DNA of 39,897 bases from Kineococcus vitellinus. GTDB lineage: Bacteria > Actinomycetota > Actinomycetes > Actinomycetales > Kineococcaceae. A program made the translations under genes and the position numbers. The stretch spans positions 1-39,897 of the forward strand of contig NZ_JAAALL010000005.1 of the NCBI RefSeq assembly GCF_009906315.1, read 5' to 3'. Below are positions 15,842 to 20,722 of the stretch, piece after piece; the stretch's first letter is position 1; each line of letters opens with the position of its first letter. The notes below the pieces were generated by a model, which saw only the letters and a program-made list of their open reading frames with translations, was not told where the DNA came from and made no database searches.

Positions 15842-17413
15842 TCAGCGCTCCGGCGCCTGCGGCCGCTGCCCGCGCGCCAGCAGCGCCAGGTGCAGCGCCA
15901 GGCGCGTCTCCGGGTCCTCCAGGTCCCGCCCCAGCCGGCGCGCCAGCCGCTCCACGCGCCCGTAGGCGGCCGGGCGCGACAGGTGCAGGCGGGCGGCGAG
16001 CCGGGTCATCGACCCGCCGGCGGCCAGGTGGTGGGCGAGCAGCTCCAGGTCGGCCGCCCCGCCGTCGGGTGCCTGCAGCAGCGGCAGCAGCTGCGCCTCG
16101 GCGAACTCCGCCAGCCGGGCGTCGTCGCGCAGGTGCCACAGCAGCCCCCGCACGCCCAGGTCGCCCGTGCGGTGGACCGCGCCCGGCGCCCGCCCGGGCA
16201 GCGCGGCCGCCACCTGCGCCACGTGCCGCGCCTCGGCGAAGCCCTCCGCCGCCTCGGCCAGCCGGCCCACCACCGGTCCCGCCGCCAGCGTCGCCCCCGG
16301 CGGCAGCGCGCGGGCCAGCCGCGGCAGCACCTGCTCGGCCAGGCGGTCGGCGGGGGCGCTGAGCAGCGCGCCGACCAGCGGCCCGCCCAGCGGGGCGGTG
16401 ATGCCGACCTCCTGCGCCCCCGCCAGCACCGAGGCCACCAGGGTGCGCTCCGCGTCCGCGGCCGCGTGCACGACGACGGCGACCAGGCTGCCGCGCAGCG
16501 GCAGCCCCAGCGCCCGGGCGCGGCTGCGCAGCTCCGCCTCGTCGACGCCGCGGGCGCGCAGCAGGTCGCGCAGCAGGTCGTCGTGGGCCTGCTGCACCAG
16601 CCGCTCCGCCGGGTCGGCGCCGTCGGCGGCCAGCAGCCGCGCCACCGTCAGCGTCTCCGCGGCGCGCTCCAGCACGAGCGCGACGTCGGCGACCTCGGCG
16701 CGCTCGGGCAGCACCAGGCGCCCCCAGCGGTCGCCGACGGCCCCCACCGGCGTCACCACCCACCCCTCGGGCCCGCCCGCCGCCGTCGCGGTCGCGGGCG
16801 GCACCCGCCGCGAGCGCGCCGACCAGTCGCGCAGCACGTCGGCGGCGGCCGCGCCGGCCGCGGCGTGCGCGAGCGCGCGGTGGGCCAGGTCCTCCAGCAC
16901 CACCGGGCGCGCCAGCAGCCGCGCGGCCCGCGCCAGCACCTCGTCCGCGGGCACGCCGGTGGTGCCCAGCGCCGCGAACGTCGCGTGCACGCGCTCGGCG
17001 AAGCGCAGCCGGGCGTACTGCTCGTGCAGGATCCGCGCGTGCACCTGCTCGGTGACCTCCACGAAGCGCACCGTCCGCGACAGCTCCACCAGGGGGAAGC
17101 GGGCCGCGCGGGCCGCGCGCACCAGCGCCTCGGGCAGCGCCGCGACGTGCTGGCCGAGCTCGACGACCAGGCCGACGGCACCCGCCTCGGCGAGCGCGGC
17201 CACGTAGCCGGTGGTGTCCACCCGCGGGTCCAGCAGGCCCATGCCGGTGGACAGCACCAGCTCACCGCCGCCCAGCGTCCCGGCCAGCTGCGTCTGCTCG
17301 CTGACGTGCACCCAGCGCACCGGTGCCGCCAGCCCCTCCTCGCCCGCGCGCAGGCGGGGCGCGCCCGCGGCCAGGACGGGCAGCGCGAGCACGTCCTCGA
17401 CGGTCAGCGGCAC
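15842..17413 (-). CDS. pucR: PucR-family purine catabolism regulator
   Basis: This 523-residue transcriptional regulator has the family's three parts. The N-terminal PucR domain (LTVEDVLALPVLAAGAPRLR to about 125, with GGELVLSTGMGL) is followed by a central GAF/GGDEF-like CdaR region, and the C-terminal helix-turn-helix reads LELLAHHLAAGGSMTRLAAR, then LHLSRPAAYGRVERLARRLG. In Bacillus, PucR senses a ureide such as allantoin and controls purine-degradation genes; the allantoinase and allantoate hydrolase nearby support the same role. The start is GTG 17413 (VPLTVEDVL), with TACCCT 6 nt upstream suggesting a leaderless mRNA. It is divergent from an aminotransferase with two palindromic sites between. 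Confidence 0.93.
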   Translation of the reverse strand: MPLTVEDVLALPVLAAGAPRLRAGEEGLAAPVRWVHVSEQTQLAGTLGGGELVLSTGMGLLDPRVDTTGYVAALAEAGAVGLVVELGQHVAALPEALVRAARAARFPLVELSRTVRFVEVTEQVHARILHEQYARLRFAERVHATFAALGTTGVPADEVLARAARLLARPVVLEDLAHRALAHAAAGAAAADVLRDWSARSRRVPPATATAAGGPEGWVVTPVGAVGDRWGRLVLPERAEVADVALVLERAAETLTVARLLAADGADPAERLVQQAHDDLLRDLLRARGVDEAELRSRARALGLPLRGSLVAVVVHAAADAERTLVASVLAGAQEVGITAPLGGPLVGALLSAPADRLAEQVLPRLARALPPGATLAAGPVVGRLAEAAEGFAEARHVAQVAAALPGRAPGAVHRTGDLGVRGLLWHLRDDARLAEFAEAQLLPLLQAPDGGAADLELLAHHLAAGGSMTRLAARLHLSRPAAYGRVERLARRLGRDLEDPETRLALHLALLARGQRPQAPER

Positions 17414-17419
17414 CCGCCG

Positions 17420-17425
17420 AGGGTA
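17420..17425 (-). promoter_or_regulatory. -10 element of pucR
   Basis: TACCCT on the minus strand stands 6 nt before the GTG at 17413, a leaderless arrangement. A palindromic site (17429-17441) abuts it on the upstream side, well placed for autoregulation. Confidence 0.45.
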
Positions 17426-17428
17426 GTG

Positions 17429-17473
17429 CGACGGAACGTCGGCGCGGCGCGCTCGGGCGCGACGCTTCGTCGC
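17429..17473. promoter_or_regulatory. Twin palindromes CGACG-N3-CGTCG, candidate PucR operators
   Basis: CGACG-GAA-CGTCG occupies 17429-17441 and GCGACG-CTT-CGTCGC occupies 17459-17473. Their centres are 31 bp apart, close to three helical turns. Both sit in the 136-bp region between pucR and the divergent aminotransferase gene. Paired, phased palindromes of one type next to a regulator gene usually mark its operators; identity as PucR sites is inferred. Confidence 0.5.
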
Positions 17474-17549
17474 TGCCGCCCGGCGCCCGCGGCGCGCACA
17501 GTGGGAGGGGGTGGGACCCACCCGTCCACCGTGCGAGGCGAGGAGCGGC

Positions 17550-18950
17550 ATGACCGTCACCGACCAGAGCGTCCAGGGCCGCAGCGGCTCCGACCTGACG
17601 ACCGCGGCCCGCGAGCACCTGTGGATGCACTTCGCCCGCATGGGCGCCTACCAGGACACCCCGGCGCCCGTCATCGTCAAGGGCGAGGGCGCGTACCTGT
17701 GGGACGACACCGGGCGCCGGGTCCTCGACGGGCTGTCCGGGCTCTTCGTCGTCCAGGTCGGGCACGGGCGCGCCGAGCTCGCCGAGGTGATGGCCGAGCA
17801 GGCCCGCCAGCTGGCGTTCTTCCCGGTGTGGGGCTACGCCACCGAGCCCGCGATCCGCCTCGCCGAGCGCGTGGCCTCCTACGCCCCGGGCGACCTGAAC
17901 CGGGTGTTCTTCACCACCGGCGGCGGTGAGGCCGTCGAGAGCGCCTGGAAGGTCGCCAAGCAGTACTTCAAGCTCACCGGCAAGCCGCTGAAGCACAAGG
18001 TGATCTCCCGCGCGACCGCCTACCACGGCACCCCGCAGGGCGCGCTGGCCATCACCGGCCTGCCCGCCATGAAGCAGGCCTTCGAGCCGCTGACGCCCGG
18101 CGGGTTCCGCGTGCCCAACACCAACATCTACCGCGCCGAGCGCATGGGCGCCCCCACCGACCCCGTCGAGTTCGGCCGCTGGGCCGCCGACCGCATCGAG
18201 GAGGCCATCCTCTTCGAGGGCGCCGAGACCGTCGCGGCCGTCGTGCTGGAGCCGGTGCAGAACTCCGGCGGCTGCTTCACCCCGCCGCCGGGCTACTTCC
18301 AGCGGGTGCGCGAGATCTGCGACCGCCACGACGTGCTGCTGGTCTCCGACGAGGTCATCTGCGGCTTCGGCCGCCACGGCACGATGTTCGCCTGCGAGAA
18401 GTTCGGCTACCAGCCCGACATCATCACCTGCGCCAAGGGCATGAGCTCCGGCTACGGGCCCATCGGCGCGATGATCGCCAGCGACCGGATCATGGAGCCG
18501 TTCCTGGAGGGCAAGAACTTCTTCCCGCACGGCTACACCTTCGGCGGCCACCCCGTCTCGGCGGCGGTGTCGCTGGCCAACCTCGACATCTTCGAGCGCG
18601 AGGGGCTCAACCAGCACGTGCTCGACAACGAGGCCGCGCTGGGCGCCACGCTGCGCAAGCTGCTCGACCTCGACATCGTCGGCGACGTGCGCGGCGACGG
18701 GTACTTCTGGGCGGTCGAGCTCGTCAAGGACAAGGCGACGAAGGAGACGTTCGGCCCGGCCGAGCGCGAGACGCTCATCAAGCAGTTCCTGCCCACGGCG
18801 CTGTTCCGCAACGGGCTGTACGCCCGCCCGGACGACCGCGGGGAGCCCGTGATCCAGGTCGCGCCCGCCCTCACCAGCGGGCAGGCCGAGTTCGACGAGA
18901 TGGAGCAGGTGCTGCGCACGACGCTGCTGCAGGCCAGCGCCCTGCTCTGA
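17550..18950 (+). CDS. Class III omega-amino acid aminotransferase
   Basis: This 466-residue PLP aminotransferase of class III (beta-alanine/GABA/omega-amino acid:pyruvate type) has VKGEGAYLWDDTGRRVLDGL at the N-terminus, the PLP-phosphate segment VFFTTGGGEAVESAWK, the cofactor Asp in SDEVICGFGR, and the Schiff-base Lys in ITCAKGMSSGYGPIGA. GYTFGGHPVSAA is typical of the beta-alanine-pyruvate group. The amino donor cannot be read from sequence. Position next to pucR suggests an amine from nucleobase breakdown, such as beta-alanine or beta-aminoisobutyrate, but this is inference. ATG 17550 has GAGGAG at 4-5 nt. It shares a divergent promoter region with pucR and is followed by 149 bp before the chemoreceptor gene. 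Confidence 0.92.
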   Translation: MTVTDQSVQGRSGSDLTTAAREHLWMHFARMGAYQDTPAPVIVKGEGAYLWDDTGRRVLDGLSGLFVVQVGHGRAELAEVMAEQARQLAFFPVWGYATEPAIRLAERVASYAPGDLNRVFFTTGGGEAVESAWKVAKQYFKLTGKPLKHKVISRATAYHGTPQGALAITGLPAMKQAFEPLTPGGFRVPNTNIYRAERMGAPTDPVEFGRWAADRIEEAILFEGAETVAAVVLEPVQNSGGCFTPPPGYFQRVREICDRHDVLLVSDEVICGFGRHGTMFACEKFGYQPDIITCAKGMSSGYGPIGAMIASDRIMEPFLEGKNFFPHGYTFGGHPVSAAVSLANLDIFEREGLNQHVLDNEAALGATLRKLLDLDIVGDVRGDGYFWAVELVKDKATKETFGPAERETLIKQFLPTALFRNGLYARPDDRGEPVIQVAPALTSGQAEFDEMEQVLRTTLLQASALL

Positions 18951-19099: not shown

Positions 19100-20722
19100 A
19101 TGTCCCAGGCGTCCGCAGGCGGCCGTCGCCGCTTCGCCGACCGGTCCGTGGCGACCAAGCTGGCCACGCTCGTGGCCGCGTCGTCGGTCATGGCGGGGGC
19201 GCTGCTCGCCGTCGGCCTCACCGGCGCCTCCGAGGTCAACGGGCGCGCACGGGCCATCTACGCCGAGGAGCTGGTGCCCGCCCGTGACCTGGCCGGCATC
19301 CGCGCCGGCGCGGTGGAGGCCCAGCGCGACCTGGCCAACCTCGCCCTCGCCCAGGACGACGCCGCCCGCGCCGACCTCACCGCGCGCCTGAGCGCCGACG
19401 ACGAGGCCCTCGACGGCCTCGTCGCCTCGTACTCCGCTGCCGTGACCACCCCGGCCCAGCGCGCGCAGCTGCAGGAGTTCACGACGTGGTGGGACGCCTA
19501 CCGCGCCACCCGCGACAACTTCCTGCTGCCGCTGGCCACCTCCGGGGACGCCGCGGACCGCGCGAAGTTCCAGACCCTCTACCTCGGCAACGTCGCGATC
19601 CTGGCCGGCCACGCCACCGACGCCCTGGACGCCCTGGACGCCACCAGCGACGCCGACGCCGCGGCCTCGCTGGCCGCCGCCTCCGACAGCTGGTCGCGCG
19701 CCCGCCTGACCTCGATCGTCGTCGCGCTCGTCGGCCTGGTCGTCACCGCGCTGCTGGCCGTCTGGACGACCCGCCTCGTGGTGCGCCCGCTGCGCCGCGT
19801 CGTGGACGTCCTGCACCGCGTCGCCGACGGCGACCTCACCGCGACCGCCGACGTGCGCCAGCGCGACGAGGTCGGCCAGATGGCCCAGGCGCTCGCGAGC
19901 GCCACGGACGGCATGCGCAGCACCGTCTCCGGCCTGCACGCCGAGGCCGCGGCCCTCGCCGGGGCCGCCGAGCTGCTGCGCGACAACACCCGCGTCATCG
20001 CCGGCGGCGCCGAGGACGTCTCCCAGCGCGCCGCGCAGGTCGCCCGGTCCGCCGGCGAGGTGAGCGCCCACATCGGCGGGGCCGCCGCCGGTGCCGAGGA
20101 GATGGGCGTGTCCATCCAGGAGATCTCCACCAACGCCGCCCGCGCGGCCGAGGTGGCCGGCGACGCCGTGCGCATCGCCGCCGAGACCGGCGGGACGATG
20201 GCCCAGCTGGGGCGCTCCTCCTCCGAGATCGGCGACGTCGTCAAGACGATCACCTCCATCGCCGAGCAGACCAACCTGCTGGCCCTCAACGCCACCATCG
20301 AGGCCGCCCGCGCCGGGGAGATGGGCAAGGGCTTCGCCGTCGTCGCCGGCGAGGTCAAGGAGCTGTCCGCGCAGACCGCGCGCGCCACCGAGGACATCGC
20401 CCAGCGCATCGAGGCCATCCAGCGCGACGTCGACAACGCCGTGGGCGCGATCGGCAGCATCGGCTCGGTCGTCTCCGAGATCAGCGACTACCAGGGCACC
20501 ATCGCCGCCGCCGTCGAGGAGCAGGCCGCCACCACCCGGGAGATGGGCCGCAGCGTCGCCGACGCCGCCGGCGGCGCGGGGCAGATCGCCTCCACCGTCG
20601 AGACGGTCGCCGCGGCCGCCCGGGCCACCGGCGCGGGCGCCGCCGACTCCGACCGGGCCGTCAGCGAGCTGGCGCAGATGGCGGCGCGCATGCGCACCGC
20701 GGTCTCCCGCTTCACGTACTGA
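19100..20722 (+). CDS. Methyl-accepting chemotaxis protein 1
   Basis: This 540-residue membrane chemoreceptor has TM1 at about 18-42, an extracytoplasmic helical ligand domain at about 45-195, TM2 at about 201-220, a HAMP domain starting [20 protein letters not shown], and a cytoplasmic signalling domain with the CheA/CheW-binding tip [20 protein letters not shown] near residues 388-408. There is no C-terminal CheR-tethering pentapeptide; the end is SRFTY. ATG 19100 has GAGGAG at 7 nt, and its N-terminus ([16 protein letters not shown]) aligns with chemoreceptor 2. It is expressed from a sigma28-like promoter. A sugar-binding lipoprotein gene follows 56 bp later and may present its ligand. 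Confidence 0.95.

Follow-up and report, generated by a model that had tools for sequence, protein, structure and literature searches.

A twin palindrome between pucR and an aminotransferase gene in Kineococcus as a candidate PucR operator

Two palindromes set three helix turns apart in a divergent intergenic region of Kineococcus are, as a whole, best explained as the operator of the PucR-type regulator encoded beside them, a reading we hold with good confidence and for which we infer binding, oligomeric state, regulatory sign and ligand. Judged from sequence, this candidate operator is very likely aimed at the neighboring class-III aminotransferase gene rather than at pucR or the allantoin genes.

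Results and Discussion

The pucR/aminotransferase intergenic region

The window (the whole stretch of DNA analyzed, 39,897 bp) contains only two matches to CGACGN3CGTCG, and both lie in the 136 bp that separate the GTG of pucR from the ATG of a divergent aminotransferase gene. Palindrome 1 (CGACGGAACGTCG; CGACG-GAA-CGTCG) occupies 17429-17441 and is centered at 17435; palindrome 2 (CGACGCTTCGTCG; CGACG-CTT-CGTCG) occupies 17460-17472 and is centered at 17466, a centre-to-centre distance of 31 bp (about three helix turns). The preliminary description of this DNA reported twin palindromes of this design and spacing in a 136-bp divergent region, one of them abutting the pucR -10, and the sequence bears out each of these points. 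The features are as follows.

15842..17413, minus strand: PucR-family regulator, the presumed binder, with PucR_N, GGDEF-like and PucR C-terminal HTH domains
17420..17425, minus strand: predicted pucR -10, TACCCT, read from the sequence; ends 3 bp from palindrome 1
17429..17441, no strand: palindrome 1, putative distal PucR box; centre about -74 relative to the predicted aminotransferase start; arms 98% identical across 10 congeners
17442..17459, no strand: linker of 18 bp; length invariant, letters drifting (42% pairwise identity)
17460..17472, no strand: palindrome 2, putative proximal PucR box; centre about -43 relative to the predicted aminotransferase start; followed by CT in 10/10 congeners
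17497..17502, plus strand: predicted aminotransferase -10, CACAGT; first base 31 bp from the box 2 centre
17540..17545, plus strand: aminotransferase ribosome-binding site, GAGGAG, read from the sequence
17550..18950, plus strand: class-III aminotransferase, the presumed target gene; passes the PRK06541 model

All three domains of the regulator exceed curated cut-offs (PucR_N, PF07905, 122.8 bits; GGDEF-like, PF17853, 48.2 bits; PucR HTH, PF13556, 49.6 bits), and a Protein Data Bank sequence search at E 0.01 (P0001) returned no match. The closest solved relatives of the aminotransferase are aminotransferase-family proteins, one of them named a Streptomyces aminotransferase. Only 6 nt separate TACCCT from the GTG at 17413, suggesting that the pucR message may be leaderless. 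A further palindrome, GGGTGGG-A-CCCACCC (17510-17524), lies straight after the predicted aminotransferase start and is absent from nine aligned congeners.

Conservation within the genus and promoter geometry

A pucR gene with a divergent aminotransferase is found in 10/11 genus genomes, with 89-93% identity outside the window's own. The preliminary description took the palindromes as a same-face pair of putative dimer sites for the adjacent PucR, and named their absence from relatives with the same gene pair as grounds for refutation; both boxes are present at exactly 31 bp in all ten congeneric intergenic regions, so this prediction survives in every close relative that has the gene pair. Seven of the ten match both 13-mers exactly, while G004 has one mismatch and G009 and G002 have two each. 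Between species pairs, the arms are 98% (box 1) and 93% (box 2) identical, compared with 35% for the N3 spacers and 42% for the linker.

The generic exact twin, defined as GACRN3YGTC-N20-GACRN3YGTC, has one or two matches per genome in the 10 pucR-bearing congeners, one of which is always at pucR/aminotransferase. There are none in G010, which also has neither a PF07905 protein nor an aminotransferase match. The reversed pattern, used as a control, gives one match across the 11 genomes, and no twin lies upstream of an aminotransferase paralogue found in seven genomes.

Box 2 is centered 31 bp from the aminotransferase -10 (NANNNT) in 7/10 congeners and 32 bp from it in the other 3/10, whereas the gap between box 1 and the pucR -10 takes values of 0, 0, 0, 0, 3, 4, 4, 10, 10, and 22 bp. 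As the -10 distance is constant at the aminotransferase and variable at pucR, the pair would appear to be mainly an operator of the aminotransferase promoter. A box approximately 43 bp upstream of the predicted transcription start, like box 2 here, is in a usual place for an activator.

Allantoin or an amino acid as the signal

The preliminary description laid its emphasis on the pucR -10 and favored allantoin as the signal, which would make the pair mainly an autoregulatory site of pucR, and PucR a regulator that controls the purine cluster in response to allantoin. We consider this unlikely. The window does encode a confirmed AllB (TIGR03178) and an allantoate amidohydrolase, pucR adjoins the confirmed allantoinase gene, and the pair stands beside allantoinase in 6/8 fetched congeneric neighborhoods, which favors some tie to allantoin; the mere 3 bp between box 1 and the pucR -10 also speaks for autoregulation. 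Against this, that gap ranges over 0-22 bp among the ten species, and no near-exact twin besides the one at pucR/aminotransferase was found in the 40-kb window, which includes the allantoin genes. A purine or allantoin regulon should place the operator before catabolic genes of those pathways, and no such arrangement was seen in the 40-kb window. G007 and G008 keep the operator while the queried allantoin genes are absent from the fetched 19 kb, and the allantoin gene group of the window also contains a putative GntR-like gene. Given the lack of any other near-exact twin among the allantoin genes, and with the box pair recurring at mmsA (below), catabolism of a beta-amino acid or semialdehyde is a better guess than allantoin. 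From pathway knowledge, the combination of an aminotransferase with a semialdehyde dehydrogenase would fit beta-alanine or 3-aminoisobutyrate breakdown.

The twin box beside PucR homologues across the class

Upstream regions were taken from 152 PucR homologues (10 from the genus, 13 from the order, and 129 from the class), and removal of near-duplicates left 139, of which 132 lie outside the genus. The cut-off for a twin was at least 7/8 and at least 6/8 matches to GACR-N3-YGTC, spacings of 12-79 were tried, and order-level loci without boxes were retained in the counts. Among the 132 non-genus regions, a twin is present at 31 bp in 53 and at 30 bp in 22, against an all-spacing mean of 8.6. 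The letters GACR-N3-YGTC were chosen after loci L011-L023, and the held-out test is confined to L074-L202 (119 non-redundant regions). Here the twin occurs at 31 bp in 45/119 regions and at 30 bp in 21, with all other spacings averaging 7.0 (sd 3.3, maximum 16); these loci share descent and the counts are not independent events. With a stricter cut, the held-out set gives 25 at 31 bp, where other spacings average 1.0. In the same set, no control motif (mirrored, direct-repeat or altered-spacer) exceeds 13 at 31 bp, and shuffled held-out sequences average 1.9 at that spacing (maximum 5). At the main cut, 74/119 held-out class homologues have no 31-bp twin.

Motif-free scoring of palindrome pairs ranks 31 bp first in 6/9 scoring shapes for the genus set and in 3/9 for the 13 order-level loci (6+3+6 not among them), and shows no 31-bp peak in the class set (42/132 versus a mean of 34.8, with 21 as the top spacing). 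The class-wide spacing signal emerges only once the GACR-N3-YGTC letters are specified.

Sorted by linked gene, a twin at 30 or 31 bp accompanies 41/51 MmsA/aldehyde-dehydrogenase, 19/43 aminotransferase, 0/1 nitrilase, and 14/47 other loci. Of 68 class twins, 22 are followed by a [CT]A...T that starts at +31 from the centre of the proximal box, with 3 at the next best offset; 43 have A at +32 and 44 have T at +36. Although its HLSRPA.Y.R core is retained, the HTH differs in Kineococcus, where the box goes from TGACA to CGACG. In reverse searches with MmsA-linked PucR proteins, the window PucR was the best among its genome's PucR-type loci in all 7 tried.

A second, unlinked site upstream of mmsA

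In G001 and G008, the additional generic twin precedes mmsA, a gene of the MMSDH family (TIGR01722, 618.9 bits). Seven of the nine pucR-bearing congeners with an mmsA match have this upstream twin, five of them with one distal-box mismatch; G009 and G002, both pucR-bearing, have mmsA without the twin, and G003 has no mmsA match. The mmsA -10, CATGAT, is 31 bp from the proximal box centre. Outside the genus, where the 20 of 47 rows with loci were examined, the mmsA twin is present in 5/5 PucR-adjacent cases, in 1/5 unlinked cases from PucR-bearing genomes, and in 0/10 cases from genomes with no PucR match; the five adjacent positives had contributed to spotting the motif, and one of them (G026) is weak and lacks the -10 at +31. 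Overall, the mmsA twin occurs in 13/19 cases from PucR-bearing genomes versus 0/11 from genomes without PucR, G010 included (Fisher p 0.0003). Its presence at the gene for methylmalonate/malonate-semialdehyde dehydrogenase suggests one small regulon leading from amino acid to semialdehyde to acyl-CoA.

G010, which has no PucR, nevertheless retains the mmsA proximal box at 8/8. A palindrome of the form TTGTC-N2-[GT]ACAAA overlaps the proximal box in 10/10 genus mmsA promoters (L217-L226), that of G010 among them. The retained box and the overlapping palindrome indicate that another factor may act at mmsA.

A different regulator might bind the boxes and control the pair, with PucR binding elsewhere, and the genome does hold 10 HTH_30 matches and many other regulators. 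This is improbable, as the twin accompanies PucR homologues class-wide whichever gene is linked, and no twin is found in the PucR-less congener or in any of the 11/11 examined mmsA promoters without a PucR match.

Chance occurrence

Single copies of CGACGN3CGTCG are not rare, with 49 in the source genome (4,855,962 bases in 698 contigs) and an average of 0.88 in shuffled windows, at least two being present in 21/100 shuffles. Chance, or an RNA hairpin or terminator of a GC-rich intergenic region, is nonetheless a scarcely credible source of the pair, given that about 0.0005 pairs are expected genome-wide at exactly 31 bp (0.015 at 31 bp or less) and that spacing and arms stay exact in 10/10 species while the linker drifts. 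This conservation in all ten congeners is the decisive evidence for not attributing the pairing to chance.

Proposed mechanism

In the mechanism we propose for a PucR operator, each box (GACR-N3-YGTC in general, CGACG-N3-CGTCG here) would take one PucR dimer, and the 31-bp spacing, at three turns, would place two dimers on one face of the DNA, where they could join in a higher oligomer. The proximal box stops immediately before the -35 region, with 31 bp between its centre and the -10, as might be expected of an activator touching RNA polymerase. PucR would then activate the aminotransferase in the presence of its ligand, for which our guess is not allantoin but a beta- or omega-amino acid, or else the corresponding semialdehyde. 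Box 1 lies between the pucR -10 and -35, and its occupation may repress or tune pucR itself.

It seems to us rather likely, if less so than the operator assignment itself, that these elements make up a PucR-activator promoter code of the Actinomycetes, in which GACR-N3-YGTC boxes 31 (sometimes 30) bp apart are combined with a weak NANNNT -10 exactly 31 bp past the proximal box. Distal box, proximal box and -10 would thus fall on one three-turn period. Such a code would serve genes of the amino-acid-to-semialdehyde-to-acyl-CoA route (aminotransferases and mmsA), the Kineococcus boxes and HTH having shifted together to CGACG. The 31-bp twin may be a general control element in actinobacteria.

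Comparison with known PucR-type systems

By analogy, the nearest precedent of the twin operator is that of Corynebacterium glutamicum GabR. According to the accessible text of its description (PMC7652997), GabR forms octamers and activates gabTDP; it recognizes two inverted repeats located from -87 to -23 of gabT, and binding is weak with a single site and strong with both. As at gabR-gabT, a PucR-family regulator here diverges from an aminotransferase gene with two inverted repeats in between, an arrangement present in 10/10 congeners with the pair; the box centres fall at about -74 and -43, with the start predicted from the -10, compared with the -87 to -23 of the accessible GabR account. 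The systems differ in that the window PucR has a GGDEF-like domain, described there as absent from GabR, and in that the GabR repeats are given as 21 bp and its pathway as that of GABA (available portion of PMC7652997). The same portion states neither a 31-bp rule nor a class-wide pattern for GabR. The remark in the preliminary description that DNA sites of actinobacterial PucR proteins are poorly described is therefore fair in general, but passes over GabR as a described two-inverted-repeat precedent (PMC7652997, accessible text).

MabR/FasR proteins are likewise PucR-type and use palindromic inverted repeats as fasII operators (accessible parts of PMC5541348 and PMC11617747); MabR activates fasII and occurs as dimers and tetramers (PMC11617747, accessible part). 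Their site, given as TTTTGT-N9-ACAAAA in the part of PMC5541348 available, is unrelated in its letters to the window boxes, and these proteins are described as having an N-terminal globin-like domain and lipid genes as targets, whereas the window protein has PucR_N (PMC5541348 and PMC11617747, same parts).

Bacillus subtilis PucR, PutR and AdeR are summarized in the accessible text of PMC7652997 as mostly activators of nitrogen-compound catabolism. The PutR and AdeR sites are described there as inverted repeats, 17 bp and 24 bp long, and the PucR box as non-palindromic, in a protein that governs purine catabolism; that text makes no mention of a twin box for the three. A literature search, with subscription papers largely outside its reach, found no published account of the twin-box rule.

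PucR-type regulators are numerous in actinobacteria, with DNA sites known for few. A fixed geometry of box, box and -10 that can be searched by spacing would make PucR regulons predictable genome by genome, and would provide structural studies of PucR assembly with a convenient DNA target. For this subfamily, "purine catabolism regulator" would be a misleading name.

Other occurrences of the motif

A scan of the whole collection for the exact CGACG twin returned 21 stretches, of which only L059 (Kineococcus indalonis) is PucR-linked, and we take the remaining 20 to be chance occurrences or unrelated. With one PucR-linked stretch in 21, the CGACG letters appear to be the Kineococcus form of the box and not a wide signature.

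In the source genome, an exact generic twin (L216, G000:C674:3734-3775) lies upstream of a nitrilase-family gene. Nitrilase homologues have an upstream twin in 1/9 cases (G000), and the gene is not claimed as a regulon target. Another exact generic twin (L214, G006:C12:164928-164969) stands between phosphotransferase-like and chemotaxis-receptor-like genes, named by eye, the latter resembling the window gene at 19100-20722; it could not be given a convincing gene assignment and is not counted as a target site. A CGACG twin with one mismatch (L050, G004:C3:66366-66409) is found at the 3' end of the G004 pucR, and a lone GACR-N3-YGTC site matching at 8/8 lies inside the aminotransferase gene of the window, at 17727-17737.
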